Source: a virus. Taken from it: a DNA stretch of 46,012 nt. Position 1 is the stretch's first letter. Each line of letters starts with the position of its first letter. The notes beneath the pieces were generated by a model. The model did not search any database. It worked only from the letters and a program-made list of their open reading frames with translations, and was not told the origin of the DNA. The stretch spans positions 1-46,012 of IMG/VR virus record IMGVR_UViG_3300005265_000012. One strand, given 5' to 3'. Positions 14,901 to 45,813 of the stretch are shown here, one piece after another. Made by a program: the position numbers and the translations under genes.

Positions 14901-15629
14901 GACTCGAGTGGTTATGGAAGACATCACCTTGGCGGAGTCTTGCATAGATCGGACATAGGCACCACTTCTCTTCGCAGCCTCCTCATAAATGACATTGAGC
15001 ATGGCTATTCTTTTGTCCATAGATGTCAGCTCCGCTGCTGTCTTGCCTATTTGAGCCGCATAGGAAGAGTAGATTTCAGTGAGGCCTTTGACTATTCCAA
15101 ACTGCCTGAGAAGCCTTGGGAGTTGTTGGGCAATGGCAAGGGTGAGGATGTCAAAAGCCTCAGAAGAGCCCAGAGTGGTGCCAGCAGCCAAATCCTGAGC
15201 CGCCCTCGCCAGCTTCGTGACCTCAGTGAGCTCCATGCCCATCTGAATCCACCGAGTCATTGCCTCCCTAGCCTCTATGACAGAGATGCCCAGCCTTCTC
15301 ATTGCCTGCTCAGTCGCCTGAAGCTGAGACTGGGTGTAGAAGGCATTTTCTCCAACGACGCTGAGGGCAGTCGCCATAACATCTGCTCTTGCAGCAGCCA
15401 TCATCGTTTGTTTCGTGAAAGAGCCGATGGCAGCCGCTGCTGCACTGGTGGTAACTGCCTGAAGGACTTTTCCAAGAGTAGCAGCAGAGGAGGAGAGCTT
15501 GGTCATCTCCTTGTTGGTTTTGTCTGTTGCTGCTCCTATATCTTTGAGAGCGTTTTCAATGGAGCGGGCTGCGTTGATGAGCTCTCTAAATTCAACTGAG
15601 ACCTGATAGCGGATGTCTCCTACAATCAT
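11931..15629 (-). CDS. Tape measure protein
   Basis: A 1,232-residue, Ala-rich, mostly helical protein with long charged coiled coils (about 360-960). A hydrophobic segment lies near 285-345 (IAAAAGGISVFFSLAAAITA and following), and another Gly/Ala region at about 1050-1120. The N-terminal stretch (SIENALKDIGAATDKTNKEM ... VLQAVTTSAAAAAIGSFTKQ) is typical of tape measures. It fixes tail length, using the usual rule of about 0.15 nm per residue, so a tail of roughly 180 nm is predicted. It starts 15 bases after the frameshifted chaperone stop. No lysozyme or peptidase motif was seen inside it. Confidence 0.95.
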   Translation of the reverse strand: MIVGDIRYQVSVEFRELINAARSIENALKDIGAATDKTNKEMTKLSSSAATLGKVLQAVTTSAAAAAIGSFTKQTMMAAARADVMATALSVVGENAFYTQSQLQATEQAMRRLGISVIEAREAMTRWIQMGMELTEVTKLARAAQDLAAGTTLGSSEAFDILTLAIAQQLPRLLRQFGIVKGLTEIYSSYAAQIGKTAAELTSMDKRIAMLNVIYEEAAKRSGAYVRSMQDSAKVMSSITTRVIPDLKAAIGEAFLPILDATVLRLYDWLKALSSLDPAIRTLIAAAAGGISVFFSLAAAITAAQAAALLFGATIAPYAPLLLAVAAALGATAGATVYLTRKTEEDTEELAKNFAERQNHLVLIGQLREAIAKYGEQSKEAAAAAQTLDRAIGGVAAAFDEQGKIIAVDLEYLSWYEEQTMRAGLAIEKQLKQKLAEAEEKIRSLKSSMEDVVLRMEYQRRMIGRFGWGEERLTELSEKFKKLQKDLKIAREEASKIRRTLDQITGADILAAIKKMKDELAGLGLNLKEGTVQIKDAAGNITTFGEMGRKAISEIEAGYASLSPYVKAYNEAVREHGERSAEALRAARAYHAALKRFLTTARSTIDAEVRSAEQRKKWQRDLEVAKKEAAVSEAKYHSEVEALLLKRQSLELQIREMEKEGLKGAAKKVQLETKLKELSYDLIRARQAEREAAQEHEFTLARIVALRRGESSELLELNQLLARKARLERDLEELKKAGLDATAKQAELDSTNLEIAQKRVSIREQEFKAVVNTLDVFLELQRETGRFLTTETLLASTAAALSAVIERYNTLMTSLGRKTAETTTSLGDYEQALNTLESLMQGVASALESTIHGTEEEKAKASELHEVYTSLAAIHTRLLRLIEERGEKQSKLALFHGEIARAVREEVEAHMTLFEAAHRGVEQEIIDQERLITAYRARQGAAKEAAQRQTEIIQASIEQQVLTLEQAEEAGRSMSGYWNALTTSIAGGVATASQTGAEALLRFGTLGGAVFNTLTTSVSNMVIEMTQTFANGVARMIVYGESFGKSFGDVIRQMVASFISAVIQMMMQWLAFKALTAMGVPIPKAAGGGQVGGAAKAQEGGAVKGSKAVPILAHEGEWVIKTSSVRKYGESFMAALNQGLLPVEPLKALATLTRRPIITPLRPRLSYQEGGVVSSLAAALSKAGAEEGKPINLTINNVVDPKLMEGFIASPVGERVILNVIARNRYRIREVL

Positions 15630-15644: not shown

Positions 15645-16378
15645 CTACAAGCCCGCCTTCTTCAAATAGGATTCATATTCTTTTCTTGTCATCGTTTTGA
15701 GTGGCTTGGGTGGTCTCGCCTTCTCCCTTCTAGGCTTTGGCTTCAGCGTCTCTTGTCTTTCTCGCAGGAGCTTGCTTCCCATAGCAAGGAGAGCCAGCTG
15801 TCCTGGGGTGTAGGTTTCCAACAGCTCTTTTAGTCCTATCCCCCATCCTTCGCAGAAGGAGGCATAGACGGCTGCTTGGGGGAGGTTGTCCTCGAAATCT
15901 CCTCTATCAATGCCATAACGCCTTGCAAGGGCTTCAATAAAAAATCCTCTTGACTCTGCACCTCCATTTGGACTTGTAGGAAGTGGAGAAGATCAGGGAG
16001 AGATGTATTCTCGCTGATCTGGTCAATTGTCCATTCATATCCATAGGCTTTGCTAAGGGCGGCCGCAGCCTCTAATAGAGAGTCTGCAATCTTGGAGTCC
16101 AAGTCGTAGAGAGAGTCTAAATGATCGCCCGCAGCCGCCAACGAGGACAGGTCTAGTTTGCCTTGTGAGTCTACCTTCAGCCCAAGCTTGAGAAGAGACC
16201 TAAGCCCCTTCCTTGCTGGCTTCATCCTCATGTTCACTTCTTTTGCATATTTTATGGGCATCGGCCTCACTTCTATCTCGACACCCATGAATCTCACCTT
16301 CCTCCCAGTGGGGAAGAGGATTTGATCTTCTAACTCTTCAGTTTTCTCTCGCTCAAGTCTCTCTCGATTCTCATCCAT
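15645..16378 (-). CDS. Tail assembly chaperone, long form by -1 frameshift
   Basis: This is the gpGT-like product. The ribosome reads the short chaperone frame to L147, slips back one base on T TTT TTA (15938-15944), and continues as IEALARRYGIDRGDFEDNLP to a stop at 15645. That adds 97 residues, 244 in all. The -1 frame is open, contains LPQAAVYASFCEGWGIGLKE and a basic C-terminus ending YLKKAGL, and looks much more protein-like than the zero-frame tail. Synthesis of G and GT forms by -1 slippage, just before the tape measure, is conserved in siphophages; the long form binds the tape measure and recruits tail tube protein. The stop is 15 bases before the tape-measure start, which also supports the frame. 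Confidence 0.85.
15836..16378 (-). CDS. Tail assembly chaperone, short form
   Basis: The unshifted 180-residue product, equivalent to lambda gpG. It begins MDENRERLEREKTEELEDQI and has a beta segment (KVRFMGVEIEVRPMPIKYAK) followed by helices, as in other tail chaperones. It lies between the tail tube gene and the tape measure. Residues 148-180 are low-complexity in the zero frame (SRTTSPKQPSMPPSAKDGG), as expected for a stretch that mainly has to hold the overlapping -1 frame. See the long form for the slip site. Confidence 0.85.
   Translation of the reverse strand: MDENRERLEREKTEELEDQILFPTGRKVRFMGVEIEVRPMPIKYAKEVNMRMKPARKGLRSLLKLGLKVDSQGKLDLSSLAAAGDHLDSLYDLDSKIADSLLEAAAALSKAYGYEWTIDQISENTSLPDLLHFLQVQMEVQSQEDFLLKPLQGVMALIEEISRTTSPKQPSMPPSAKDGG
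15938..15944 (-). other. Slippery heptamer for -1 frameshift
   Basis: On the coding strand the bases are T TTT TTA, in phase with zero-frame codons GAT TTT TTA. This is the same heptamer class as the HIV gag-pol slip site, which permits both tRNAs to re-pair after a one-base backward shift. I did not identify the downstream stimulator with confidence. Confidence 0.8.
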
Positions 16379-16397: not shown

Positions 16398-16994
16398 TTA
16401 GGATTCTGCTTCGAAGTAAACTCTTTCTCCTACTATCCTTTCATTTCCATGAGCTGAGCTGATGTAGCTATAAGCATCAAAGCCAAGAGCGATCTTGCCT
16501 GCATCATCAGGCCGTAGATTTTCAGTATATTCAGTCTTCGCAGAGACCTCTGGGAAATAGTGGACAACTTGAGTTCCATCTAGAAAGTCAGCAACACCAA
16601 GAAGAGCATATTTCTTCAGCTGAGTCCTTCCAAAAGGAGCTCTCGTGATGCCTGGCGTGCTGCACTCCTGCACATCCACCCCTAAAGCCTTGCTAACAAT
16701 TGCGTTAGACTTTCCATAGACAGAGATCGTCAGCTCGCCATCCACCCCAATGATTGCTTCGTATTGCAAGGCCTTCGGGAGGCCTAGCTTGAGTTGGTAT
16801 TTCTCCTTTCTGATAGTGATTGTAGGACTGTCCTCTACAACAGCCCCTAGATTGGTGAAGCCAGCTGGAGGAGTGTTGACATCAATCCTACCGCTACACG
16901 GATCCCATTCTTGAGGATAGTCGGCAATCAAGAGTTGCTCAATAGCTAGACTGACTTCTGCTTCAATGATTTCATTGTCATAGGTCTTGCCCAT
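16398..16994 (-). CDS. Major tail tube protein
   Basis: A 198-residue protein placed directly before the tail chaperone, where siphophages encode the tube subunit. The pattern FTNLGAVVEDSPTITIRKEK and VDGELTISVYGKS, with alternating beta strands and the small loop around KAL, fits the tail tube/Hcp-like fold, in which an early LG-x-V..E segment and strand pairs recur. Its start lies inside the last 17 bases of the large glycosyltransferase gene upstream, with GAGGTG eight bases before ATG. There is no added Ig-like domain. It should polymerise into the tail tube. Confidence 0.85.
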   Translation of the reverse strand: MGKTYDNEIIEAEVSLAIEQLLIADYPQEWDPCSGRIDVNTPPAGFTNLGAVVEDSPTITIRKEKYQLKLGLPKALQYEAIIGVDGELTISVYGKSNAIVSKALGVDVQECSTPGITRAPFGRTQLKKYALLGVADFLDGTQVVHYFPEVSAKTEYTENLRPDDAGKIALGFDAYSYISSAHGNERIVGERVYFEAES

Positions 16995-19740
16995 ATCCCA
17001 ACACCTCCTCTCTGTTTAGAGATTTTTCTAAGATATCACACTGCCTCTTCAAATAGTCTCGTAGCTCATCAACCGTCACAATCCAAAGCCCTTGCGGTTT
17101 CTCCTCTTCTCCTTCTAAGCTTATAGAAACACGCACTTTCACTGGTCTGGTCATTCTTCCTTCCGCCTCTAAAAGAAGTCTAGCCTCCGCCGCTCTAGCT
17201 AGACACTCTTGGTAGAGGTGGAAGAAGCTTTGAGCTGTAAGAGGATCCTCACGAGCTTTTTCTGAATTCTGTCTCCACAATTCAATTGCATCCAATAAAT
17301 ATTTCTTTCCCAAAGGCGTCAGCGCTCCTCTGTTCAGCCGTCTCTGCCATTTCTCAAGGCTTAATAAAGTTCTCATCATAAGATAGTTAGCAATTCTCCT
17401 TCTTGGGTTGCGCTTCAAATCTTTCTTCAGCAGAATCAAATTTCGTCCTAGTTTCATAGTCCTCTGAACCTCTGTCATATATCCATGATGAGCGATGACA
17501 ACATCCTTTACAAAACACACGGGAGTTATTGGTTTATTCAAAGATAAACCTACTTGCTCGTGGACGACTCCGTAAAAGCTATACTCAGGCCTGTTTTTAA
17601 AGAGGCGAACAGGAAGATCGCTTTTCGGCAAGCCCCACGCAGCGAAGTGGCGCTGTTCAATCGCATAGCCCTCAACAAGAGGAGAAGAGAGGTATTTAGG
17701 TAGGTTCTCAGAGCCGTGTAATTCTTCGTCCGCATCTATGTAAAGAATCCAGTCAGAGGTGGCCTTCACCTTTGCCTCGTTTCTCGCCCAAGCAAAGTTG
17801 AAAAGGCCATCGCCATCAGGATCTGAACTGATGTTAAAGACCTTGTCTGTGTATTGCTTACAAAGAGGGACAGTTCGATCAGTGCTGCCTGTGTCACATA
17901 TGATAAGCTCATCATAGATGGAGTTCAAAGAGTTTAGACAGCGAGGAAGATTTTGCTCTTCATTCTTCACAATCATAACAACAGCAAGTGAGCTTTTCGG
18001 TCTTGTCCTTGTCTTGTTAACATGAAAGTCTGGACAGCCAAAAGGGAAGAGACAAAGCGTAGGAGAGAGGTAGAAGGAGGTAACCCACATACCCCTGCCT
18101 TCACCTTTGTTCGTTCTCTGGTGAGTTATATAACGCATATGGAATTGATCTTGGTCTCTGAAAAGGGACTCCAACTCTAACTGCTCAAATTGACGGACTC
18201 CAAACCCCCAAGGACCTCTGGCTGTCACAATCACCATCTTGCCTCGAGGAAGTAGTAAAGACCGCCACCCATTCAGAGCCTCTTGATAGCTCTCAACAAT
18301 CTCCAGAGCGCAGTCTGCTATCAGGCAGTTGAATTTTTCTTTGGGATTGAGATGCCTGCCAGGCCAGTCTCCTTCATAGGAAGGGATTAGAGTGGTCACA
18401 TTCAAAGTCTTCTTTGAGGAGAGAGAAGAAGCCAGCAAATCAGCTCTCGGGCTGATGATGAGAATCCTTTCGCCAACAATTGACTTGGTAAGTTCTTTTA
18501 GTAGAAAAGTTTCGCCAGCAACTCTAGGGATTGATATCTTTTTGCGCCTCTTCTCTTTCTGCAAGAAGGATTTTGCAGAAAGCAAAATCTCACCATTATT
18601 AGCTATTTTTAATGCTCCTTCTATGTCATTGATGGAGAGGAGAGAGTCCACTATTCTCTTGTTGTTGGCTTTCCTCCTCTGATCAAAGAGATGTTGAATC
18701 CTCTCTAATCTTGAGTCTATTATTTTAGGCCAGTCATAAACTTCAGCCCTCTCCATCAGATCCTTCTGGAGGGCCTCGTATTTTGCAGGTGAGTTTAGCA
18801 AATCCTCAACAACAGCTATGAAGCGGTCTGCATAGTCCGCTCGGATGTGAGGAGTTCCTTTTATACGAAGCTCAGGAGGAAGGTATTCCTTCATTGCAAA
18901 GGCGTCAGAAGTAATGACAGGAGTGCCCGCCGCCATCGCCTCCACTGCGTTGATGCAAAAGACTTCAGGGTAGGAAGTGGGGTAGAGATAAAGTCTGGAA
19001 GCAGAAAGGGCTCGGTAGAAAGAGGGTTTAGAAAGAGAACCTAGGAGAGTCACCCCAGGGGTTCTCTCTGCCAGCCTCTTCATACGCAGGTGATAGGAGA
19101 GAATAGAAGGGGGAAGGCGGCCAGGCTCGATGTCATATCCAGCAATAAAAAGCCTAAGCCTAGGGTTTCTCCTCCACAGTCTAGGCCATATTTCAGTAAG
19201 AAGATAGCCAAGACCTCGTTCTGGTCTGGAAGCATAGATCAAAGAGTCTTCCTTTGGTCGTGTGTTAGATCTTATCTCAGAGATGGAGACGCCGTTTGGT
19301 GTGATCCATATCAGCTTTTCCAGCTCTGGTTGCACATGTAAATATTGTTTCTTGTGAAAGGAGGAAAGAAGCCAAATCTCATCAGCAGCCCAAACGGAAG
19401 AGCCTAGTTTAGGTTTTGTCTCCTCTGTGAGAATGTCGTGGCACACTAAAATTCTAAGCTTTGCTCTCTCCAAAAGAGGAAGAACATCCCAGTTTCTATA
19501 AACAAAGAAGACATCCCAATCACCACTTCTCAAAGGGCCTTCGCCTGCATGTAGAGGCTTATAAAGGACTCCGTTGAATTGAGAAGCCTTTCCACAGTCT
19601 GTGTAGACCGTGACATCATGACCTCGGTTCGCAAACTCCATAGCCGCATAGCAAAGAGAAGACTCAGAACCTCCCAAACCTTTTTCATACATGGTAGAAC
19701 CATCAAACGGAACAGAGTTCGTATAAAAACCTATTTTCAT
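16978..19740 (-). CDS. GT4 / methyltransferase-like / GT2 fusion protein
   Basis: A 920-residue protein with three parts. Residues 1-350 are a GT-B, GT4-type glycosyltransferase: GLGGSESSL, ITPNGVSI, SRPERGLGYLLTEIW, and the EVFCINAVEAMAAGTPVITS nucleotide-sugar motif. Residues about 420-560 look like a degraded class I methyltransferase (ERILIISPRADLLASSL, LIADCALEIVESYQEAL, LLPRGKMVIV). Residues 583-800 are a GT-A, GT2-type glycosyltransferase: LAVVMIVKNEEQNLPRCLNS, CDTGSTDRT, NFAWARNEA, YIDADEE with the D669-x-D671 metal site. The C-terminus is helical. It probably adds two sugars in sequence to one acceptor. The gene lies directly before the tail tube gene and overlaps it, so the tube or another virion protein is a plausible target. 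Confidence 0.85.
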   Translation of the reverse strand: MKIGFYTNSVPFDGSTMYEKGLGGSESSLCYAAMEFANRGHDVTVYTDCGKASQFNGVLYKPLHAGEGPLRSGDWDVFFVYRNWDVLPLLERAKLRILVCHDILTEETKPKLGSSVWAADEIWLLSSFHKKQYLHVQPELEKLIWITPNGVSISEIRSNTRPKEDSLIYASRPERGLGYLLTEIWPRLWRRNPRLRLFIAGYDIEPGRLPPSILSYHLRMKRLAERTPGVTLLGSLSKPSFYRALSASRLYLYPTSYPEVFCINAVEAMAAGTPVITSDAFAMKEYLPPELRIKGTPHIRADYADRFIAVVEDLLNSPAKYEALQKDLMERAEVYDWPKIIDSRLERIQHLFDQRRKANNKRIVDSLLSINDIEGALKIANNGEILLSAKSFLQKEKRRKKISIPRVAGETFLLKELTKSIVGERILIISPRADLLASSLSSKKTLNVTTLIPSYEGDWPGRHLNPKEKFNCLIADCALEIVESYQEALNGWRSLLLPRGKMVIVTARGPWGFGVRQFEQLELESLFRDQDQFHMRYITHQRTNKGEGRGMWVTSFYLSPTLCLFPFGCPDFHVNKTRTRPKSSLAVVMIVKNEEQNLPRCLNSLNSIYDELIICDTGSTDRTVPLCKQYTDKVFNISSDPDGDGLFNFAWARNEAKVKATSDWILYIDADEELHGSENLPKYLSSPLVEGYAIEQRHFAAWGLPKSDLPVRLFKNRPEYSFYGVVHEQVGLSLNKPITPVCFVKDVVIAHHGYMTEVQRTMKLGRNLILLKKDLKRNPRRRIANYLMMRTLLSLEKWQRRLNRGALTPLGKKYLLDAIELWRQNSEKAREDPLTAQSFFHLYQECLARAAEARLLLEAEGRMTRPVKVRVSISLEGEEEKPQGLWIVTVDELRDYLKRQCDILEKSLNREEVLGYGQDL

Positions 19741-21158
19741 AGCTTCGGTTTCCTCCTTCGTATAAGCCAGTCTATTATAGTATTTACAGTGCAGTTCTCA
19801 GAACCTATAGAAAGGGGAAGATACCAAGAGCAATGGGGAGGAGCCCAGCTGGTTTGAAAGCCAGCAGGAAATGGTTCTTTACTGTGAGTTACACCCTCCT
19901 CAGCCCAGAGCATTACTGTGTCTTTTCTGTAGTGAACAGCCAACATACCTATGCCAGAAGAGACAGCTACAACCAAAGAGCAGGATTTGAGGAGAGAGAG
20001 AAGCTGAGCTGAAGTAGTTTGGCCTATCATGGAGTCAGCTTGAAGGCCCCTGTGATAGGCTTGAAGATAGAAGTCCATGTCATCTCTCCCATGATAAGGA
20101 AGTTTCGTGCCAACCACAACGGGTCTCGAACCATAGAGAAGAGACAATTGGCGAGAGAGATTGACCCAATCTTCTATCGCCCAACTACCATCGTTCCATA
20201 TCTCGTTTGTATACCAACAACTCATGTAGAAGAGGACTTTAGGGGGAGGGCTGACAGGTAGCGGAGAAACAGGAAAAGAGGGATAAGACCAATTCGTCTC
20301 ATATTGAGGGAGAATGTTCTCCAACCTCTCCCCTCTTTCAAGAGGATGGTTGAAGAAAAGCAGGAAGTCTATGCCATCCCTGTTGTATTCCACTGAAGCC
20401 TGCACATAAGGATGGGAACGCCATGTTCTATATTCATAGGAGTCTACAAAAGGGACAGAAGCAACCAGAGCTCCAGCCCTTCTTGGAGGATGGTCGTTTA
20501 TGATCAGGTGAAGCTTGCACGGTCTTCTGCTGTTCTTCAGAGATTGAAGTTTGGTCAGAATCCAGTGGACATCGCCCAAGCCTGCAGGGACGCCCACAGA
20601 GACAATCTCTTCCTGAGTCGGGTCGGGTGTCGCCATAATAGTCTTGCCGTCAGAGAGAGGAGCGACAGTGATAGTTTTGTAGCCAGAGTCAGAGAGAAGA
20701 TTGATAATTTGCGTTGAAGTGAAAGTGCGAAGGAGCAAGTCCCCTCCCCTCCTTCCTCGGACTTCTATGAATAGACACCCAGACCGCTTGAGGAGTTTTC
20801 TCACCCTGAGAAGGTAGGCTTTGGGATCTAAAACTCGGTCGAGAAGAGCTCCCATATAAATGACGCCAAAGGAGTCGTTAGGGATGAAGTGGTTTGACAG
20901 CAAGTCTCCAAAAAAGACCCTCCGCTTCAAAGACTCAGGGACTGCATTATAGTCCAATTCTGTGCCTTTGGAGCCAGGGATTTGTTCAAGGAGATATCCA
21001 CAGCCACAGCCTATATGAAGGACAGATGGAAGAGGGTTCATATCTTTAATGCGACGGACTACCCATGCGTCTCCAAGAGTCCACACTCGTTGGTGGAAGA
21101 GGCCGTTTGTGTAGTGGGAGATTAGCTCATTAGAATCTATCATCTCTTCTTTCTCCAT
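19737..21158 (-). CDS. Methyltransferase / GT9-like glycosyltransferase fusion
   Basis: A 473-residue protein. Residues 40-170 are a class I SAM methyltransferase: VLHIGCGCGYLLEQI (motif I), GTELDY, FGVIYMGALLDRV, LKRSGCLFIEV. From about 190 it is a GT-B glycosyltransferase resembling the heptosyltransferase (GT9) family: GLGDVHWILTKL, then KVLFYMSCWYTNEIWNDGSW, and the C-terminal acceptor-domain pattern IGQTTSAQLLSLLKSCSLVV with VSSGIGMLAVHYRKDTVMLW. The GxGDxHW start is shared with the protein at 24425-25426, so the two GT9 halves are paralogues. The last four bases overlap the next glycosyltransferase gene, so the pair is coupled. The likely role is transfer and methylation of a sugar; the acceptor is unknown. 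Confidence 0.8.
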   Translation of the reverse strand: MEKEEMIDSNELISHYTNGLFHQRVWTLGDAWVVRRIKDMNPLPSVLHIGCGCGYLLEQIPGSKGTELDYNAVPESLKRRVFFGDLLSNHFIPNDSFGVIYMGALLDRVLDPKAYLLRVRKLLKRSGCLFIEVRGRRGGDLLLRTFTSTQIINLLSDSGYKTITVAPLSDGKTIMATPDPTQEEIVSVGVPAGLGDVHWILTKLQSLKNSRRPCKLHLIINDHPPRRAGALVASVPFVDSYEYRTWRSHPYVQASVEYNRDGIDFLLFFNHPLERGERLENILPQYETNWSYPSFPVSPLPVSPPPKVLFYMSCWYTNEIWNDGSWAIEDWVNLSRQLSLLYGSRPVVVGTKLPYHGRDDMDFYLQAYHRGLQADSMIGQTTSAQLLSLLKSCSLVVAVSSGIGMLAVHYRKDTVMLWAEEGVTHSKEPFPAGFQTSWAPPHCSWYLPLSIGSENCTVNTIIDWLIRRRKPKL

Positions 21159-21562
21159 TTTTCTCGCAGCAAGTTTTCATACTCTCTATGCGAGAGCATG
21201 TAGTTGAAAACTCTAGTGATAAACTTCCGACCTACACCTCCCTCCCTAGTCATCGGCTGAGCCGCAGAGACAGGGCCTAAGTTGTATTCGCCCTCATGCA
21301 TCTTCAACGCATAGGGAAGGTCTCCAGTCTTCACTCCCCCAAAGATTTTGGTTGTTTCCCCCTTCAGAGGGATAGGCCGAATGGAGCGGCGGAGGGCTCC
21401 AGTGAGAATGGGAGCGTTGAGCTTGCTCCGCCACGCTGCCTTCCGACTCAGCTCAGTCATCGCCTCTTCCAAATCGTTCCTGGTGAGAGACAAGAGGCGA
21501 GCAGTTCTTTTGAGAGCTCTTTCTAAGCCGTGTGCTTTCAAAGAGATTTGGACCCTCGCCAT
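21140..21562 (-). CDS. HK97 gp10-like tail completion / minor tail protein
   Basis: About 140 residues. The segment RKAAWRSKLNAPILTGALRR and the following YALKMHEGEY match the HK97-gp10-like family, in which an APx(D)TGxLRxSI stretch is followed by a Y...hE core. This family completes the head-tail neck next to the tail terminator. It sits after the tail terminator gene with a one-base overlap. Its end overlaps the methyltransferase/GT9 gene by 19 bases, so the sugar enzymes appear spliced in at this exact boundary. ATG at 21562 is preferred to the GTG one codon upstream. Confidence 0.8.
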   Translation of the reverse strand: MARVQISLKAHGLERALKRTARLLSLTRNDLEEAMTELSRKAAWRSKLNAPILTGALRRSIRPIPLKGETTKIFGGVKTGDLPYALKMHEGEYNLGPVSAAQPMTREGGVGRKFITRVFNYMLSHREYENLLREKWRKKR

Positions 21563-21963
21563 CACAGCCCCACTTGGTTTTTTGGCATCAAGTAGCGGAA
21601 GTTCAGAGGAATGATTACACGATGAACTTCGTCTAGATAGGAGGGGCCAGGAAGGGACTCAGGTTCTACTCTTCCTTGAATCGTCTCCCCTGTGGAGTCT
21701 TTTATCACATTGCATTCGTGATCAAGGACAGCAAAGACTTGCTTCGCTCTGTTCCAGCCTCCTTCGTAAGTGGCGCTTCTAACAAGGATTTGAAAGGTGG
21801 GAGACGCCACCACAGCCCCAGCTGCTTTAAAACCTCCAGTGGGATGAATGACAAGGAGGTCGTCAGGAGAGGCTGGACTTCTTCCTACAAAGATGTCAAC
21901 AGACAAGACGCCAAGACCTTGAGATTCTAAGTAGGAGGCTACACCGTTTGCAAGCTCAAGCAT
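21562..21963 (-). CDS. Tail terminator-like / minor capsid protein
   Basis: A 133-residue protein, length and position typical of siphophage tail terminators (gpU-like; phage minor capsid family). It starts LANGVASYLESQGLGVLSVD and has FQILVRSATYEGGWNRAKQV followed by a beta segment ending VIIPLNFRYL, the order of secondary structure seen in terminators. It lies between head-stopper and gp10-like genes. Strong AAAGGAGG site upstream. Expected to cap the tail tube and join it to the stopper. Confidence 0.7.
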   Translation of the reverse strand: MLELANGVASYLESQGLGVLSVDIFVGRSPASPDDLLVIHPTGGFKAAGAVVASPTFQILVRSATYEGGWNRAKQVFAVLDHECNVIKDSTGETIQGRVEPESLPGPSYLDEVHRVIIPLNFRYLMPKNQVGL

Positions 21964-21996
21964 AGGTTCGTTTCACCCTCCTTTCGTTCTGTTGCT

Positions 21997-22374
21997 TCAT
22001 GCTGTCGTCCTCACTGCATAAGCCACTTTACCAATCAGACCGCTGGCTGGATGGGCTAGAGGCTTGACTCGGACAACCCGAGCAGTCTCCAGCAGGAGCT
22101 CCCCTTGGACTGTTCTGCCGTTTTTGAAAAGGTCTCCAGTGGAAACGGCAGCGTCTGCTTTGAGGAAGAGCTTCCAGTCTGCTGTCACCACCTCGCCTGC
22201 AGGGGAGAGACTTATAGGCCTCTCTTTTGCTCCAGCTATGAAGCAGAAAAGTTCAGTGGAAGTGGGTGAGAAGGTCGGCTCGCCGTAGGGAGAGAGGGCA
22301 ATGGTCGGGTGGTGATCCACTCTGTGCCGAAGGTTGCGCTCATAGAGGAACTTCATTCTAAAGTTCAAGCTCAT
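21997..22374 (-). CDS. Head-tail stopper-like protein
   Basis: A 125-residue beta-rich protein in the gpFII/SPP1-gp16 position of the neck module, between connector and terminator. Sequence features that fit are KERPISLSPAGEVVTADWKL and ADAAVSTGDLFKNG, the strand-turn-strand layout of stoppers. Its ATG overlaps the connector stop (ATGA), with no separate ribosome site, so it depends on coupling. Function is inferred mainly from position. Confidence 0.65.
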   Translation of the reverse strand: MSLNFRMKFLYERNLRHRVDHHPTIALSPYGEPTFSPTSTELFCFIAGAKERPISLSPAGEVVTADWKLFLKADAAVSTGDLFKNGRTVQGELLLETARVVRVKPLAHPASGLIGKVAYAVRTTA

Positions 22375-23021
22375 CTAGAAGACACCCTGTTCGCATAAAC
22401 TTTGCGGAGAGTGTAGCGAGAGAGGATGGAAGTCAGAGAGTTTGGCATCTCTAATTCACTTCCTATTTGAGCATAGGTGATTGAATACTCCCCATTAAGA
22501 CTCTCAGATTTCACTCGACCCCTCATAGCCTCTTCACCTTCCATCAGCCTCAAAGTCAACATCGCCCCCGCTAGGATTATAGATCTGGGACAGTCAGACC
22601 AGCCCCAGTCTCCAGAGACTCTTATGTTTGAGTTGCCCCGAGGAAAGCAGAGGCAGGACACTTCTTTCCCCCATGTCAGCTGCTCCATGATAGAGCCCCA
22701 CAAAGAGGGGGTGGTTGGTTCTTTCAGGCGGAGGTGAGTTCTTCTCCAGATGATTCTGTCAGTCCAGTCGCTCCACTCTTCAGTAGTAGGCGAGTAGATT
22801 TCCACTGAGGTCATGTTTGCAAGAGAGGGGGAGAGTAGAAGAAGAACCTCCCCATTGCCGTTGAAGAGTTTCGCTTGGCCTTCCTCGAAATGAAAGATGT
22901 CTCCCGTCGTGTTGCAAATCATCTCATAAGCAGCCTCAACCGCAAAGGGGTCAATTGAGAGGTCTGGTCGAAAAGCCTCTGCTCTACTCTTGATATGTTG
23001 AGCTATGTCTTCATAAGTCAC
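22371..23021 (-). CDS. Head-tail connector (gp6-like adaptor)
   Basis: About 216 residues from GTG at 23021, which has GGAGG six bases upstream; a GTG at 23039 is the alternative. The N-terminal segment VTYEDIAQHIKSRAEAFRPD, the aromatic core EEWSDWTDRI and PRSIILAGAMLTLRLMEGEE fit head-tail adaptors that bind the portal. Position between the capsid region and the stopper supports this. No catalytic motif is seen. Confidence 0.65.
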   Translation of the reverse strand: MTYEDIAQHIKSRAEAFRPDLSIDPFAVEAAYEMICNTTGDIFHFEEGQAKLFNGNGEVLLLLSPSLANMTSVEIYSPTTEEWSDWTDRIIWRRTHLRLKEPTTPSLWGSIMEQLTWGKEVSCLCFPRGNSNIRVSGDWGWSDCPRSIILAGAMLTLRLMEGEEAMRGRVKSESLNGEYSITYAQIGSELEMPNSLTSILSRYTLRKVYANRVSSR

Positions 23022-23090
23022 AGACAACCTCCCTCTCACGCCTCCTTTTGGTAGCTCTCTCTAATAAAAGCTATATTGTCTTAGTAGTGT

Positions 23091-23390
23091 TCAGCCAGAA
23101 CTCGCTTGGTGGAGGGAGTAGATGATAGATCGTATGTCTTGAATTGCGTGTTTGAAGGCTCGGGGCTCAACCTTGGCCTCACCTGAATAGAAAGACTTTA
23201 TTCTTTCCTTGACCAAAGCTGGGTTAGCAAAAGAAAAGCGAACCCTCCCCTTCTCATCTACATGAACCTTGTCATAGTTGACACGACACAGTCTCAAGTA
23301 GGCGACCTCGTAGACATCAGAGAGTTCTACGACTTGCCCTTGTTCTTCTTTTCCAATTCGCTGTGTCATTTTTCTATCAGCCTGCGTCAT
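23091..23390 (-). CDS. Unknown small protein in head-tail module
   Basis: A 99-residue protein. I chose ATG at 23390 because GAGGAGG lies seven bases upstream; an upstream GTG at 23435 would overlap the preceding glycosyltransferase. It is hydrophilic, with a helical C-terminus (FKHAIQDIRSIIYSLHQASS). It lies between the sugar-enzyme block and the connector, where siphophages often encode a short connector-associated or decoration protein. No family was recognised. Confidence 0.55.
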   Translation of the reverse strand: MTQADRKMTQRIGKEEQGQVVELSDVYEVAYLRLCRVNYDKVHVDEKGRVRFSFANPALVKERIKSFYSGEAKVEPRAFKHAIQDIRSIIYSLHQASSG

Positions 23391-23419
23391 TGTTCTTCCT
23401 CCTCTTTGAGTTCCACTCG

Positions 23420-24412
23420 TCATTTTGATACACACTCCTCCACTATTTTGCGTAGTGAGGCTGCCCAGCGAGTTGCGCTAAAGTGAGCCCGCACATAGGA
23501 GCGGCCTCTCGCCCCCATCTCAGCTGCCGCCCCAGGGGAATTGACCAGATGCTCTAAACCACTAGCAAAGGCTTCAGGGCTCTCAGCAAGAATGTAGGAG
23601 CGATAGTTGTTTGCTTCGTCAAACCCCTCTTTGGGTGGAAGCATTATGGCAGGGATGCCCATGGCCATCAGCTCCAACTGTGCAAAAGAGGGTTGAGGAT
23701 TGGGCAGAGGAAAAAGGGCTGCAGAGTAGGCTTTGAGAGATGAAGGGTTGAAGATGTAACCCTTATTCATCTCTCCAAAGAAGTGGTTGTCACTGCCGTA
23801 GACATCTATGCGTTTGCAGTGCCTCTCCGTCAAAGCTTCAAAGATTTGTCTCGTCAGCTCTGCCCTGTCTTGATAGATGGATAGCTTCTGCATAAGACCG
23901 TTTCCATATAAGACGGCTCGGGAGTTGAAGGTGTAAGCGTGATTTTTAAAGTCTTGGGGAAGAAGGGCTATAGGGACAACATAGGAAGTCCCAAGATTCA
24001 TCCAAGTCGAAACCACTTTTTTCTTATATTCAGAGTTGAAGACAGCGTCGACCCCTGGGATGAGGGTCTTGAAGAAGTCTTGGGCTGCTTTGTCTTTGAT
24101 GTATGTGCCATGATTGTGCCATAGCAGTTTGGTCGGTTGCAGTAGCTGTGCCAGCCTGCACGTGCGAGGGTCATCTACAATTACCAAATCTGGGCAGCCA
24201 AATCGACTCTCCAAAGCAGACTTCAGATTGTCTCTCATGTCTCCCTCATCTCGGAAGACCAATTCCGTCGGACAGACTCGGGGCCATCTGAAGCCTAGAT
24301 AGCAGCCATTTTGGCCCGCCACTCTCGGGTTCACAATAGCTATGGAAGAGGCAAAGGCGAATCTGTAAAGGGCGTCAATACCTCCATGACAGCAGAATTT
24401 TAGAAGTCGCAT
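23420..24412 (-). CDS. GT4-like glycosyltransferase
   Basis: A 330-residue GT-B-type protein. LLWHNHGTYIKDKAAQDF and VDAVFNSEYKKKVVSTWMNL resemble the acceptor half of GT4 enzymes. FAQLELMAMGIPAIMLPPKE is the donor-binding motif of GT4 with the conserved E and G, and the C-terminus has the typical EMGARGRSYVRAHFS helix. Single-domain, unlike its neighbours. It is followed by the head-tail connector genes and preceded by a GT9-like gene, all co-directional. The likely role is transfer of a sugar from a nucleotide donor; donor and acceptor are unknown. Confidence 0.8.
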   Translation of the reverse strand: MRLLKFCCHGGIDALYRFAFASSIAIVNPRVAGQNGCYLGFRWPRVCPTELVFRDEGDMRDNLKSALESRFGCPDLVIVDDPRTCRLAQLLQPTKLLWHNHGTYIKDKAAQDFFKTLIPGVDAVFNSEYKKKVVSTWMNLGTSYVVPIALLPQDFKNHAYTFNSRAVLYGNGLMQKLSIYQDRAELTRQIFEALTERHCKRIDVYGSDNHFFGEMNKGYIFNPSSLKAYSAALFPLPNPQPSFAQLELMAMGIPAIMLPPKEGFDEANNYRSYILAESPEAFASGLEHLVNSPGAAAEMGARGRSYVRAHFSATRWAASLRKIVEECVSK

Positions 24413-24424
24413 TTCTTCTCCTCT

Positions 24425-25426
24425 TTATCTTGCCTTTAGCTTGCTGAGGGCTTGCCCTAAGATCTTTCTGAAGCCGTCAAAGTAGCACGCTGGAGTGTAG
24501 CCTGCAAGAGAAATCTTTTCAGAGGGAAGCCAAGATGTTCTCATTCTTTCTGGAAGGGGAGCCACACTGCCTGGTCCTGGCCAAAGAGCTAGGACATTGG
24601 CTCCTCTTGCCGCAGCCAGTATTGTAACGCCGCTGATAGAGCCTATGACAAGGCGAGCCCCTAAGAGAAGAGCCATGCATTGGGAGAAGGAGGTGCGGCC
24701 AATGAGATTTCTAAAGACGCCTCCCTCACTCTCCACCTCTTTAGCTTTCTCCTCATCACACTCCAAGCCGACAGCAAGACAATTGTAGCCCTTGAGCCTA
24801 CACCCTTTCACCAACATCGCCCACTCTTTGGAAGTCCACGGGCCAGCCCAAAACTGCTCTGCCAGCTTGTCTCCAAAGTAAAAGACAATATTGTCATGAG
24901 GTTTTGGAGTCGGGAGCCCCAAAGGATAGTTGTAGTCAACTTTTAAGTCTGGAAGCCAGTCCTCAATTCTTCCTCCTTTGAGGAGCACCACATTCGGGTC
25001 AAGAGCATAGTGAAAAGACTCGCCTTCAACAATGCCGTCAGGCCCCGTGCAAATCTCTTCTGCTCCAGCCTCATAAGCAACAACATCAGGATGCATCATA
25101 GCAAACTCTCTAGCCCTTCCTGCAGGTCGCCCAGAAACAGCTGCGTAGCGAAGGCGGGCTCTCGTGGCCCTGCAGGCGGAGAGGATGGCTCCTAGTTTGA
25201 GGAAGACCCAATGTAAGTCTCCTATCCCATCTCTCACATCTAAATTCAAAGTGTCTACCCCTCTGTTTCTGAGTCTGGCTGTCTCTACCACCTCTAGGTA
25301 GCGAGAGCATCTTGCATAGACCTCTGGAGGAAGATCCACAGGTTTGCGGTCTCTGATGATGGTGGGAATCTCTCCTTTCACTCGGACGCTTAGGCTTGTG
25401 ACGCCTTGTTTTAGCCTTACTAACAT
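24425..25426 (-). CDS. GT9-like glycosyltransferase with short N-terminal domain
   Basis: A 333-residue protein. Residues 1-50 form a small beta segment (VRLKQGVTSLSVRVKGEIPT, RKPVDLPPEV, YLEVVE) that is also found, weakly, at the start of the 502-residue neighbour. From 60 it is a GT9-like GT-B fold: RDGIGDLHWVFLKL, WAGPWTSKEWAMLVKGC, LIGRTSFSQCMALLLGARLV and IGSISGVTILAAARGANVLA. The GxGDxHW motif is shared with the 473-residue protein. GT9 enzymes such as heptosyltransferases transfer sugars to lipopolysaccharide, but phage homologues are uncharacterised. Good ribosome site. Its position between other sugar enzymes suggests one pathway. Confidence 0.75.
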   Translation of the reverse strand: MLVRLKQGVTSLSVRVKGEIPTIIRDRKPVDLPPEVYARCSRYLEVVETARLRNRGVDTLNLDVRDGIGDLHWVFLKLGAILSACRATRARLRYAAVSGRPAGRAREFAMMHPDVVAYEAGAEEICTGPDGIVEGESFHYALDPNVVLLKGGRIEDWLPDLKVDYNYPLGLPTPKPHDNIVFYFGDKLAEQFWAGPWTSKEWAMLVKGCRLKGYNCLAVGLECDEEKAKEVESEGGVFRNLIGRTSFSQCMALLLGARLVIGSISGVTILAAARGANVLALWPGPGSVAPLPERMRTSWLPSEKISLAGYTPACYFDGFRKILGQALSKLKAR

Positions 25427-26935
25427 TTACTTTTCCTCCTTTCTTTTTCTCTTCCTTGCAATCACAGTCAGCTTGCCTTGAATCGGTTTGAAAACGGAGA
25501 GTGTCTCCAGTCCATATACTCTTAGCATGTCAAGAAGAGTTTGTTCAGTGAAATAGAAGAGGTGCTGGAGGCGGCGGAAGTGTTTGGGCTGTTCAAAGGC
25601 AAGAGGAATTTCAACGATGAAGAGCCCTCCAAATTTTAGATGGGATAGCAGAAGAGGAAGCTCCTCACACAGATTGAGATGCTCAAGGACATCAGTGGCG
25701 ACCATGAGGTCAAAGAGTTGATCAGATGGAAGGTCTTCAACGAAGGAGTGGTCATTAGAGGGGTCGCCTGGTCCCAGAGTAGTGACTCGGTGGCCCTGAG
25801 CCTGGAGAAGAGTTTTGAGAGAAGGTCCCGCACTGCCTACCTCCAACCAAGAGGAGGGAGATTTGGGAAGCCATCTTCTCCATTGGTCGAGCCTAAGAGA
25901 AAAAACTTTGTCATCATGAGCCCGTCTCTTGTTGTAGGGAGTTTCGTTTTCAACAACCTGTCTCCACCCTTTGTCATAGAAAGAAGCGTAAAAGCGGCGA
26001 AGACCTAATGAGGTGAGTTTGACATCCTGTCTGACCGTGTTGCAGCGTGAGCAGCGGAGAAGGTGTTGGTTGTGGCTCACAAAGCGTTGGGCTCTGAGTT
26101 CACCACACCAGCAGCAAAGTCTGTGGGAAAGAGCAAGCTGAGCCCCTGAGATGTAGGAGGAAGGATCGTCTCGGTCAGGGTGGTGGACCTCTACAAAGTA
26201 GGAAGTGCGGTTTTTGGTCCATGTAGCCCCAAGAGGGATGATAGGGACTTGGAAAGCTCCTGCTACGGGGAGGGTGGAAGTCGCAACAGTCAACGCCAGA
26301 TCTGCTCTTTCAATGATGGGAAGCCAGGCCAGAGACTTGGTGCGGGGGATTGTTAAGACAGGAAGCCCACACGCTTGTTCAAGGAGAGAGGGCAGGGAAG
26401 AAGCTAGCTGTGAAGGGAGGGATCTTTCCTTTCGACTTGCATGTGGAGAGAAGATCAAGAAGCGATCAGGCAGAGAGTTCAGAGTGGAGAGCTTCTCCTC
26501 CTCGGTGGTGCAGAGGATGGGGAGTTTGAAGGGAAGATTGTTCAACCCCAATAAGCTTGCAAATTGGTCGGTTAGCTCAGGTCCTTGATGATCTAGAGCA
26601 GAGGAGAGTTCAAAGTCAGAGTCGGTGGCAGGATGAGTTCTAGAAGGCGGAAGAACTCTATAAAGAGGCTCGTCGTGGGGGGAGACGCCTAGAGAGAGAG
26701 TTGAAAAGTAGAGACAAGGCAACAGATAGACCTTGTCCCCAAGCCCTCCTCCAGTCATTTTGAGGCCCACAGCCTTGTGAGCAAAGCGGGGCAGAGGCTG
26801 GACATCAAAGTAGAGAGGGAGGCAATGAAGAGCTAGTAGAGGGAGGTCAACAGATTGTCCTCTCTTCATGAAGCCAGTCAAGGGGGAGAAATAGGTGGGA
26901 CAGTCCCGCAGAGTGAATCGAGCCATCTCTACCAC
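25427..26935 (-). CDS. GT9-like / zinc-ribbon / methyltransferase fusion
   Basis: A 502-residue protein. After a short N-terminal segment (RFTLRDCPTYFSPLTGFM ... GQSVDLP), residues 55-265 resemble a GT9-type glycosyltransferase: KMTGGGLGDKVYLL, FLIFSPHASRKERSLP, LTVATSTLPVAGAFQVPIIP. Residues 274-298 form a zinc-ribbon-like pair, CCWCG and RCSRC. Residues 355-495 are a class I methyltransferase (SSWLEVGSAGPSLKTLLQAQ, DLMVATDVLEHL, FGGLFIVEIPL). The ribbon plus methyltransferase resembles sugar C-methyltransferases that start with a Cys pair, so one activity may methylate a sugar that the other transfers. Start may be GTG 26935 or ATG 26926. Confidence 0.75.
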   Translation of the reverse strand: MVEMARFTLRDCPTYFSPLTGFMKRGQSVDLPLLALHCLPLYFDVQPLPRFAHKAVGLKMTGGGLGDKVYLLPCLYFSTLSLGVSPHDEPLYRVLPPSRTHPATDSDFELSSALDHQGPELTDQFASLLGLNNLPFKLPILCTTEEEKLSTLNSLPDRFLIFSPHASRKERSLPSQLASSLPSLLEQACGLPVLTIPRTKSLAWLPIIERADLALTVATSTLPVAGAFQVPIIPLGATWTKNRTSYFVEVHHPDRDDPSSYISGAQLALSHRLCCWCGELRAQRFVSHNQHLLRCSRCNTVRQDVKLTSLGLRRFYASFYDKGWRQVVENETPYNKRRAHDDKVFSLRLDQWRRWLPKSPSSWLEVGSAGPSLKTLLQAQGHRVTTLGPGDPSNDHSFVEDLPSDQLFDLMVATDVLEHLNLCEELPLLLSHLKFGGLFIVEIPLAFEQPKHFRRLQHLFYFTEQTLLDMLRVYGLETLSVFKPIQGKLTVIARKRKRKEEK

Positions 26936-26959
26936 TTGTCTCCCTTAACCCTCCTCTTT

Positions 26960-29155
26960 TTAGAGTTGCCAGAAAAATTCTGGATGTTTCTCTGCATAAG
27001 ATTTCACCTTTGCTGGTGAAGCGTTTATGTCAAATCCGTAGCGGAAGATCTGCGAGCGATGATATATCTTCTTTATTTCCCAGAGCTTCTGACAAAGTCC
27101 TCTTCTAAACATGAAGTCCCACCAAGTGTCAGGATGGTGTTTGTAGGTGTCAATGAAATTGTTGTCAGGCCATTTCCAACTCTTCATGCAGGGTTGACAG
27201 CCGTTGCGGCTGAGGCGTCCTGGGTCGTAGAGAGCGCACATAGGAATATTGTTGGTGCGAAAATATTGGAGGACTTCGTCAGGCTTCCAATGCCATATTG
27301 GCCACAGAATCCATTTCTTATCTCCCGAGTGAAAATAGAAATGTCCTTTTTGTAGCCAGACTAGCATGCGTTGCCGAGTGTTATGGGAGATGAAGCAGTT
27401 GGAAACATAGGTGTGAGAAGGTATAGTAGTGAAGTCTCCAAGAGGAAGATGAGTGGAGAGCTTTTCCACAAACTTGACTTCATCTATAAAGAGACGGTTT
27501 CGCCTCAGCCAATCCTTCACAGCAGGACTGCACCGTAGATAGCCTCGTTCGCATCTTTCCTCTGGAAGCCTTTTGTTTCTAGAAAGCCAATCGTTCCCCT
27601 TAACTTTTCCTAAAGGAGGAGTTATGTGAAGACTCCAAACTCCCCTCTTCTCGTCCCTGTTCCACCTGCGACAAGAGCGAGAGCACCAAAATCCAGACAA
27701 AAAGCACAGCTGCTGGATTTGTTCTGATGCCTTCTTGTTCGTAACATAAAGGCTCCAAAATTCTCCATCAGAATGTCCATCAGCTTGGATGCGACCGTAG
27801 AGATAGAAGGGGAAATACGCTCCACAGTTCTCAAAAAACCAGTCCCCTGCTTCCCCTTTGGTTGAGATTGCGTGGAAGAAGTCTTTAAGTTTGGCGGAGT
27901 TGTATATCAAGTCGAATGTTTTAAATGTCCTCCAACCTTTCGTTGTAGAAATGTATAGTTGCTTTGTGTGTTTAGGTTTGAGAATGGGAATAGCTTTAAA
28001 TACATTCCACATGTGCTCTCTAACCAGAGGGAAGTCGTCAGAAGAAACAGAAAAGGAAATGCCATCATGATACTTCCCTCCTTTTCCACGAAAGCTTCCA
28101 TTTCCATCAAAATAACCTACCAGCCAGGCCAGCTCAGGGGTCATTCTAGACGGCGTCGCAACCAGCCTGTCTTCTCGGGGCTGTATGTTCAGGGGGATGT
28201 CAGAGTCAAAAGTTCTTTTGCCTTCAATTAAAACAGGCTGACCTCGCTTCAAATCCTTCACCTGAGTCCATGTTAAAGAGGGAGTGGCCTCTCCTTGTAA
28301 GCCCGACACCGTTCGGACTCTGTGATGAGGGTGAGTTATAAGTTCAAGGCCAGAGAGGAGCTTTACCCTAAAGACTGGGCAGATGCCAGCGTTGACAGAT
28401 CGTTTCACAAGAGATAAGGAGTGACCGTCAGCAATGTATGTGCCAGCCTTGATTTTGTCCAAGCGGATGAGCCCTCTCTTAGTAGCACCGTAAGAGGAGC
28501 TCAGCAGCAGACATTCTTGAGCCATAAGCCCCATTGCAGTGCAGTCAGAGCCAACATATCTAGCATGGCGATCCATCGGAACTTTCTTCAAAACATCCGA
28601 ACATGCGCCACTTATGCGAGCCCTTGTTATAGCCAGAGCAGCCAATTCGTCTCCTCTTTTACGAGCGATGGCAGCATTGACCTTCCAAGTTCCTGGCATT
28701 GCAAAGCGGTCTCCTCCAAGAATTGGCCAGCCATGAGTCCTCGTCATCTGCCAGAAGGAAGTGGGAGCTTTGAGTCGGGTGTATTTTAAGTTGCGGAGTT
28801 TGGCGTAGAGGTCAACATAGGCTAAAGTCTCAGGCGGTTCCACGCCCGAGTCTACATAAACCACTTCCACCCTATCCATTACGCCTGCTCGAAGGGCTAT
28901 CTCTATGAGCAAGGTGCTGTCCTTCCCTCCACTCCAGCCTATGAGAATTCTTTTGACTTTGGTGATCGCCTCTCTCATAATTTGGGCGGAGAGAGCAAAC
29001 TTATCCTCAAGAGAGTAGGTTTGATACTCACCAAGAAGGTGCATCCTCTGTTTTATGCGAGTGGAGGATAAATAGCCATGGCGGGATTTGGGAGTGCCTC
29101 TTGAAGATCCAGGTTTTTTATTCCTAACTCTCAGCTGGACTGTGTCTTCTTTCAT
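26960..29155 (-). CDS. PAPS-reductase-like PP-loop protein interrupted by an intein
   Basis: The 731-residue precursor becomes a 353-residue protein after removal of a 378-residue intein. The extein is a PP-loop ATP pyrophosphatase of the PAPS reductase/adenylyl-sulfate type: IGWSGGKDSTLLIEIALRAG (SGGKDST at 75-81), YVDSGVEPPET, and GLMAQE/TRQRM, which is the family's GxxAxExxxR motif formed only after splicing. The C-terminal part has GCQPCMKSWKW, a Cys pair. Phage proteins of this family are common but their reaction is not settled; candidates are sulfur transfer to nucleic acid or to a sugar. It opens the sugar-enzyme block after a hairpin, so it may be expressed separately from the capsid gene. 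Confidence 0.85.
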   Translation of the reverse strand: MKEDTVQLRVRNKKPGSSRGTPKSRHGYLSSTRIKQRMHLLGEYQTYSLEDKFALSAQIMREAITKVKRILIGWSGGKDSTLLIEIALRAGVMDRVEVVYVDSGVEPPETLAYVDLYAKLRNLKYTRLKAPTSFWQMTRTHGWPILGGDRFAMPGTWKVNAAIARKRGDELAALAITRARISGACSDVLKKVPMDRHARYVGSDCTAMGLMAQECLLLSSSYGATKRGLIRLDKIKAGTYIADGHSLSLVKRSVNAGICPVFRVKLLSGLELITHPHHRVRTVSGLQGEATPSLTWTQVKDLKRGQPVLIEGKRTFDSDIPLNIQPREDRLVATPSRMTPELAWLVGYFDGNGSFRGKGGKYHDGISFSVSSDDFPLVREHMWNVFKAIPILKPKHTKQLYISTTKGWRTFKTFDLIYNSAKLKDFFHAISTKGEAGDWFFENCGAYFPFYLYGRIQADGHSDGEFWSLYVTNKKASEQIQQLCFLSGFWCSRSCRRWNRDEKRGVWSLHITPPLGKVKGNDWLSRNKRLPEERCERGYLRCSPAVKDWLRRNRLFIDEVKFVEKLSTHLPLGDFTTIPSHTYVSNCFISHNTRQRMLVWLQKGHFYFHSGDKKWILWPIWHWKPDEVLQYFRTNNIPMCALYDPGRLSRNGCQPCMKSWKWPDNNFIDTYKHHPDTWWDFMFRRGLCQKLWEIKKIYHRSQIFRYGFDINASPAKVKSYAEKHPEFFWQL
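27380..28513 (-). other. Intein with LAGLIDADG endonuclease (378 aa)
   Basis: The intein runs from C215 to N592 of the precursor. It shows the N-terminal nucleophile Cys, block B ELITHPHHRV (TxxH at 274-277), two LAGLIDADG motifs (LAWLVGYFDGNG 342-353 and LYGRIQADG 452-460, with candidate metal Asp D350 and D459), and C-terminal HTYVSNCFISHN followed by Thr as the first extein residue. It is inserted inside the conserved GxxAxExxxR motif of the host protein, a typical intein site. The endonuclease looks complete, so the intein may still be mobile. Confidence 0.9.
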
Positions 29156-29306: not shown

Positions 29307-30350
29307 TTACTCGCCATAGCCTTGAGGGGCATCTACCTTTACATTGGTAGCCAAGACCATGCAATTCTTGTTTTCTATTAGCGCATCAGTCTCAGAGTAG
29401 GTGGTGTTCTGCCATACATCCTCCCTAGGTTTGAATTCCCAATACATCTCCACATGCCTGCGGTAGATGTAGACCAAATTCTGAAGGTAGGTGAGAATTA
29501 TATAACCATGATTGCCTACAGTCCCTACAAGGTGGTCTTCAGGCATGAGAGGAGCCATAATCATAGGAATGCCAAAGGGAGCGACGCTCATGCCTTTGAT
29601 GACTTCATCTCCCAATGCAGTCTGTCTTTCTGCTAGCTTTGAAGTCCACCGAATGTTGAGCCTAGGCCCTACAATCCAGCGCAGGTCTGCTGGATTTTTG
29701 AGGTAGGGAGAAGGCATTGCCTCCAGCATGGCTTCAAAGAGCTTGACAGATATGTTTTTTGAGCCTGCATCAACAATGTGGCATGTAGGAGCTGTCATTG
29801 CTATTTTCAATATGCCATCGTTGCAGCGAAGCAGTGTTCTCTGCATGTCATTCGGATCTTCTGGCAGGTCAGTGTCTCCTTGAATCCAAAGGAGTTCGTA
29901 GTCAGTGGAAATTCGACGAGCAAAGGCTCGCATTAAGGTCTCCCTGAAGTCTCCTCTCGGCTCCTGCCCACCTTGAGGTTGCTTCGCAGGCGGAGGTGTT
30001 CCCCCTCTCATCTCAGACTCTATGTTCTCTAAGAGAGCCGTCATGTCTAAGTCAAAGGCAGAGCGAAGCCTCTCCATGCTGTATTCCACCTTGCCGAAGA
30101 CATTGCTCCAGTCCACCTCTTTGTGTGGAGTGGCTGCTGGAGTGGTGACGACAGAGCCTACATTCAAGGTGTCGATCTGACCTTTTGATCTGGTTTTTCC
30201 CTCATTGCGAACTTGGGAGAGAAGTGTTGAGTATTCCAAGGTCAAGTCTAAAAAGCGATCTGCCTGTTCTGGCTGCAAAATGCCCCCAGCCTCTAAGTGA
30301 GTGGTGGTGAGGGTTTTGAGGTATTCTTTTATGCGATCGTTAGCGCCCAT
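29307..30350 (-). CDS. Major capsid protein (HK97 fold)
   Basis: A 347-residue protein directly downstream of the protease-scaffold gene, the usual place for the HK97-type capsid protein. Segments that fit are the helical N-arm (DRIKEYLKTLTTTHLEAGGI), RTLLRCNDGILKIAMTAPT, LEAMPSPYLKNPADLRWIVG and GIPMIMAPLMPEDHLVGTVG, the P-domain and spine region common in these proteins. No protease site was confirmed, but cleavage of the N-arm is expected from the neighbouring protease. The terminator hairpin follows. It is a possible target of the sugar enzymes encoded next to it. Confidence 0.85.
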   Translation of the reverse strand: MGANDRIKEYLKTLTTTHLEAGGILQPEQADRFLDLTLEYSTLLSQVRNEGKTRSKGQIDTLNVGSVVTTPAATPHKEVDWSNVFGKVEYSMERLRSAFDLDMTALLENIESEMRGGTPPPAKQPQGGQEPRGDFRETLMRAFARRISTDYELLWIQGDTDLPEDPNDMQRTLLRCNDGILKIAMTAPTCHIVDAGSKNISVKLFEAMLEAMPSPYLKNPADLRWIVGPRLNIRWTSKLAERQTALGDEVIKGMSVAPFGIPMIMAPLMPEDHLVGTVGNHGYIILTYLQNLVYIYRRHVEMYWEFKPREDVWQNTTYSETDALIENKNCMVLATNVKVDAPQGYGE

Positions 30351-44651: not shown

Positions 44652-44681
44652 TTCAGCCTCCTCAACTTTCAGTTAACTCTA

Positions 44682-45236: not shown

Positions 45237-45278
45237 CTTGGCCTCCTAGGTTAAAATAATACAATATCTTTTCAATCG

Positions 45279-45740: not shown

Positions 45741-45813
45741 CTTAGCCTCCTCTTTTAAACTAGTAAAATTTATTTTTATTCTTTCTTTATTCCAAGACTT
45801 AAAAGGAATCCGT

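Follow-up and report, generated by a model that had tools for sequence, protein, structure and literature searches.

Glycosyltransferase and methyltransferase genes at two sites in the virion operon of a phage from IMG/VR

To our knowledge, glycosylated virions are on record for just a handful of cultured phages, mostly mycobacteriophages, where the sugars shield the particles from antibodies. SunS of SPbeta is an S-glycosyltransferase that modifies a polypeptide, its acceptor being a bacteriocin. GmaR is the O-GlcNAc transferase of Listeria flagellin and has TPR and anti-repressor parts (PMC3150276). In Corndog and cluster O, gp35–gp38 encode an O-methyltransferase, two glycosyltransferases (GTs) and a GlcNAc transferase, in the interval between portal and protease (PMC4351075), and a further paper lists glycosylated proteins in Corndog, Che8 and Myrna (PMC12363180, citing Freeman 2023). 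Systems in which a phage encodes virion glycosylation together with a methyltransferase are already known as a kind.

Here we describe a 46,012-base IMG/VR virus record, analysed over its whole length ('the window') and possibly a fragment, which, like phages of the Corndog/Che8 kind, carries phage-encoded GT and methyltransferase genes within its virion module. We report the domains of these enzymes, their positions in the operon and the link between one of them, a three-domain GT, and major capsid protein (MCP) genes across its viral family. We consider it probable (roughly two chances in three) that the two blocks of genes encode soluble enzymes with which the phage builds glycans on its own virion proteins, likeliest on the capsid subunit and perhaps also on the tail tube.

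The two blocks and their five enzymes

All virion genes of the window lie on the minus strand. The portal (35018–36961) and prohead protease (30375–31595; PHROG) are accompanied by the MCP (29307–30350; phrog_1623, E 5e-61), the candidate acceptor, which is ~27% identical to MCPs of Streptomyces and Vibrio phages. Then come a head–tail adaptor (22371–23039; phrog_442, E 1e-11), a connector (21562–21963; PHROG) and Neck1, a tail completion protein (21140–21565; phrog_5, E 5e-9). The tail-tube candidate and possible second acceptor (16398–16994), which had no family match in the PHROG search, is named from its position between block 2 and the tail assembly chaperone (15836–16378; a weak PHROG match, E 0.004). 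A tape-measure-like protein of 1,232 aa (11931–15629, also minus strand) is next to the tail tip genes.

Block 1 (23420–26935) occupies the interval between the MCP and adaptor genes, the latter forming its downstream border, and block 2 (16978–21158) lies between Neck1, its upstream border, and the tail-tube-position gene. The placement at virion-gene boundaries in the original prediction is thus borne out, with the tail tube assigned by position only. So is the description of the genes as co-directional and overlapping or tightly spaced: all five sugar-enzyme reading frames are open and on the minus strand, 16978–19740 and 19737–21158 overlap by 4 bases, 19737–21158 and Neck1 (21140–21565) overlap by 19 bases, 24425–25426 abuts the gene starting at 25427, and 12 bases separate 23420–24412 from 24425. 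The span 16978–29155 given in that prediction also includes an intein-bearing PAPS-reductase-like gene (26960–29155), which precedes block 1 and is not a sugar enzyme. That gene encodes an N-type ATP pyrophosphatase with an SGGKDS motif and an apparent intein with a LAGLIDADG domain, whose likely boundaries (C215 to N592; 27380–28513) would leave a host protein of 353 aa.

The largest enzyme, of 920 aa (16978–19740, minus strand; PF00534 E 2e-13, PF00535 E 2e-16), has full-length homology to 48 viral proteins. It consists of an N-terminal GT4 domain (residues ~1–350, with GGSE at 23 and E-x7-E at 259–267), a degenerate methyltransferase-like middle (~400–560), a GT2 domain (584–790, with DAD at 669–671) and a C-terminal tail. 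A family methyltransferase profile built without the window protein matches residues 464–558 only (E 1e-10), and in the alignment the second half of the domain is kept while the SAM-binding first half has shrunk to a short remnant. The methyltransferase-like domain in the original prediction is therefore, on this alignment, a real homologue, and probably one made inactive by loss of its SAM-binding half.

Block 2 is completed by a fusion of a methyltransferase (~40–137; PF13489 E 2e-5, below the curated cut-off) to a GT9-type domain (~186–470) in 19737–21158 (minus strand), whose C-terminal half matches PF01075 weakly (E 0.004, below cut-off) and is paralogous to 24425–25426 (27% identity, E 1.5e-17). 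The remaining three enzymes, all of block 1 and on the minus strand, are a GT4-type GT of 330 aa (23420–24412; PF13524 E 6e-8), a GT9-type GT of 333 aa with a short N-terminal extension (24425–25426; PF01075 E 2e-8, alone among the block genes above the curated cut-off) and a protein with a C-terminal methyltransferase at 357–480 (25427–26935; PF13489 E 2e-10). The N-terminal half of the last is GT9-like by eye only, with no PF01075 match even at E 10 and an hhalign P of 0.27. With Pfam E-values of 2e-5 to 2e-16, the list of GT4, GT2, GT9 and methyltransferase domains predicted for the five genes is not a chance reading, this GT9-like half excepted.

A three-member GT9 profile matches heptosyltransferase II (1psw, E 3e-7). 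When the MCP alone, the methyltransferase-GT9 protein or the GT9 pair served as query against viral contigs, each recovered at most one relative, and neither the methyltransferase-GT9 nor the GT9/methyltransferase protein gave anything useful in tblastn against INPHARED. The sole viral relative of the GT9 gene to emerge is on contig L096, where it begins 6 bases past an unrelated HK97-type MCP gene; the evidence for an N-terminal extension common to this protein and those of 24425 and 25427 is weak. None of the five enzymes has an apparent N-terminal transmembrane anchor or signal segment, and in the two GT9-type proteins hydrophobicity peaks within the GT9 core region.

Several other genes of the window are unusual in their own right. 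Between portal and protease, 31664–35011 encodes 1,115 aa with a methyltransferase (~199–313), a nucleotidyltransferase-like motif at 381 (by eye), an ATP-dependent DNA ligase domain (500–771) and a C-terminal phage domain, and its sole INPHARED match is the ligase of the ANMV-1 virus (26% over the ligase region). A second gene with an ATP-dependent DNA ligase domain (240–1394) is found in the same phage, and the two have no detectable BLAST similarity to each other. There are also a DnaX-like clamp-loader subunit (39710–40717; phrog_5846, E 1e-65) and three tandem paralogous genes (44127–45827), 48–56% identical and sharing a CPLRGRC motif, to which no function was assigned.

A viral three-domain family beside capsid genes

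With a six-row GT2 alignment as query against IMG/VR, we took the best 80 loci. A complete reading frame was present in 67 of these best 80 matches, and all but one of the 67 were long (934–1,622 aa, mostly 934–1,093 aa), with GT2 at residue 614–737 in 62 of the 66. These define a family of ~930–1,090 aa with the order GT4–methyltransferase–GT2. Across 49 aligned members, invariant residues are spread over the whole protein, from an early GGSE through to the GT2 DAD, and catalytic residues are kept at 25–31% identity; Pfam finds GT4 and GT2 in all 49 and the methyltransferase in 48, the exception being the window protein. The latter shares the N-terminal GT4 with GGSE and E-x7-E and the GT2 DxD near 600–700, but lacks the complete class I methyltransferase in the middle. 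Its branch in the family tree is long (1.32 vs a median of 0.31), which makes its placement unsure. The window gene is apparently a divergent member of a new enzyme family, inside a known kind of system: we found no description of the three-domain family in the literature searched, which omitted most subscription journals, and no INPHARED record covers at least 80% of a typical member used as query (L116). The expectation that so many fused domains would be new holds in part, as the three-domain fusion recurs in dozens of environmental phages and the Corndog cluster has already been described, while the two-site layout and the extra methyltransferase-GT9 fusion are unusual.

The genes adjoining the family include a TPR-GT9-like protein of ~440–476 aa, upstream of the three-domain GT in L161, L164 and L172 and downstream of it in L143 and L159. 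We considered whether the upstream gene in the former three corresponds to the window methyltransferase-GT9 protein and rejected this, as it is TPR-GT9-like and has no BLAST similarity to it. As the clade nearest the window has this neighbour, a GT9-type partner recurs without direct homology. In L103, a putative amidoligase (6539–7426; PF12224) directly follows the three-domain GT.

The family is linked to MCP genes. Thirty-six reading frames of 305–395 aa lie upstream of the GT; 29 match phrog_1005 and five phrog_1328, both major head proteins. Local profiles place an MCP gene 0.1–2.3 kb upstream, on the same strand, in 45 of 64 testable IMG/VR loci (7.8 expected, P ~3e-29), under a null of random placement on the same contigs that ignores conservation of gene order within phage groups. 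Contigs from one search are not independent, and a test on clusters collapsed at 50% identity, a partial correction, gave 22 of 26 against 6.0 expected (P ~4e-14). The original prediction had named relatives far from virion genes as evidence against it; the relatives mostly show the opposite. The link is not universal: for 19 loci of the 64 the flank contains no MCP, and other genes, such as SbcC or a transposase, adjoin some of these. Downstream, adaptor and Neck1 families are found in a minority of the reading frames scanned.

In other searches of the GT2 records, portal phrog_12 was found in one of 50 and HK97 capsid PF05065 in none, while searches for TerL and SU10_MCP were informative, but a distance to TerL of at most 12 kb, taken alone, was seen 13 times vs 10.3 expected, which is not significant (P 0.16).

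A single change on the GT tree splits the two MCP families, and in the phrog_1005-like group GT and MCP identities are correlated (Mantel r 0.62, with none of 5000 permutations as high). This congruence means that the GT has long been inherited together with the head module; it may reflect no more than that module being passed on as a unit, and is not in itself proof of the acceptor. The window's own three-domain gene lies outside the 0.1–2.3 kb range, ~9.6 kb downstream of the MCP gene, past the connector genes and on the tail side.

Phages with the window's MCP family differ from it at both sites. Streptomyces phage Faust and Vibrio phage PG28 share its MCP family and gene order, and have no annotated GT from MCP to adaptor or before the major tail protein. 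Likewise, a PF00535 search of 47 IMG/VR records of the MCP set found no same-strand GT2 between MCP and tail genes; where these records have a GT2 above cut-off, it is upstream or on the opposite strand (positions worked out by hand). As both sites lack GTs in phages of this MCP family, the blocks are most simply read as additions in the window lineage.

Possible targets of the enzymes

The closest solved relatives of the presumed initiating domain would suit a protein acceptor, as the best PDB matches of the GT2 family profile are GmaR (E 1e-45) and SunS (E 4e-31). The GT2 clade also includes LPS-core enzymes of the WaaE/LgtF type, and as these are absent from the PDB matches, the ranking is possibly biased to protein-modifying members. 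If the blocks decorate virion proteins, the GT2 of 16978–19740 would place the first sugar on a side chain of new, unassembled subunits in the cytosol, as GmaR and SunS do on theirs; its GT4 and the separate GT4 and GT9 enzymes would extend the chain, and the methyltransferases of 19737–21158 and 25427–26935 would methylate, and so cap, the glycan. The role of the degenerate methyltransferase of 16978–19740 may have passed to the overlapping methyltransferase-GT9 gene. We infer the order of these steps, the sugars and the acceptor; a soluble set encoded beside capsid genes is in keeping with subunits being modified before they assemble.

The presence of LPS-core enzymes in the GT2 clade makes a host-glycan target possible. 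Under this unlikely alternative, the enzymes alter, during infection, a surface glycan of the host (O-antigen, LPS core or wall polymer) so as to mask receptors or exclude superinfecting phages, and the late operon sets only their timing. GT9 relatives, too, include LPS enzymes, 1psw being the only solved GT9 match, and PHROG files these matches under morons and host takeover. Yet late-operon expression is ill-timed for exclusion, the linkage to MCP genes is stable across two MCP families, and the genes scanned include no membrane-anchored GtrA, GtrB or flippase partner, so that the serotype-conversion set (membrane GtrA and GtrB with an acceptor-specific Gtr) has no counterpart among the window genes scanned.

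The empty slots in phages of the same MCP family, and the 19 of 64 family loci away from a detected MCP, are also what would be expected of neutral cargo, that is, of sugar genes at tolerated points of the late operon that act on a non-virion target. The position by the MCP gene is, however, far above chance even at the cluster level, and catalytic residues have been kept across highly diverged members, and we regard this reading as slightly less likely still than a host-glycan target. Very improbable is glycosylation of modified DNA bases protecting the packaged genome: GTs of T4-like and other phages do this (Pyle 2024, as cited in PMC12619734) and the window has a DNA methyltransferase (41091–41978), but proteins or LPS are the substrates of the nearest GT relatives, the blocks lie beside the MCP and not replication genes, and no hydroxymethyl-base pathway gene is among those scanned, which is weak evidence because the record may be a fragment.

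Virion glycosylation, as originally predicted, is the best supported reading, through the MCP linkage of the relatives and through independent parallels in L096, ctxSa4 and Corndog, with host-glycan and DNA targets and neutral cargo as its rivals. More tentatively, and at somewhat less than even odds, the three-domain family beside MCP genes in many lineages builds a methylated capsid glycan in one polypeptide, and the window lineage has split these activities over head and tail sites. The family offers a clear test of this, because one gene product holds the presumed initiating, extending and capping activities. If the three-domain family acts in this way, virion glycosylation would be common in environmental tailed phages, many of which may then coat themselves in methylated sugars, with consequences for the stability and adhesion of the particles, for immune recognition and for the proteomic detection of MCPs.

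Comparison with known systems

The window GT2 resembles GmaR and SunS in its catalytic domain and sequence, whereas each of these has a single GT2 catalytic domain and a cellular or bacteriocin acceptor. The likeness of the window GT9 to heptosyltransferase II (WaaF, GT9) lies in the C-terminal nucleotide-sugar region and extends over ~90 residues only, and WaaF is a cellular LPS enzyme.

Closer in arrangement are ctKR88 and ctxSa4 (MW202524, MW202718), which, like the window, carry a GT fusion (in their case of 761 aa), GTs and methyltransferases, here between the MCP and head-completion genes. In the podovirus ctxSa4, a GT2-TPR-GT4 fusion comes two genes downstream of an SU10-type MCP and precedes further GT and methyltransferase genes; its domains are related to those of 16978–19740 (GT4 26%, E 3e-26; GT2 27%, E 2e-8). 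The two differ from the window in their reversed domain order, a fusion without methyltransferase, the SU10-type MCP and a single block.

GT2 relatives also occur on two small contigs (L003 and L004), by a terminase-like gene within a cluster of sugar genes that are, by eye, GDP-mannose dehydratase-like, fucosyltransferase-like, acetyltransferase-like and GT2.

Corndog and the window both have methyltransferase and GT genes within the virion operon. In contrast to the fused genes at two sites of the window, those of Corndog are separate, short and in one block, and the likeness between the two rests on gene content and position.
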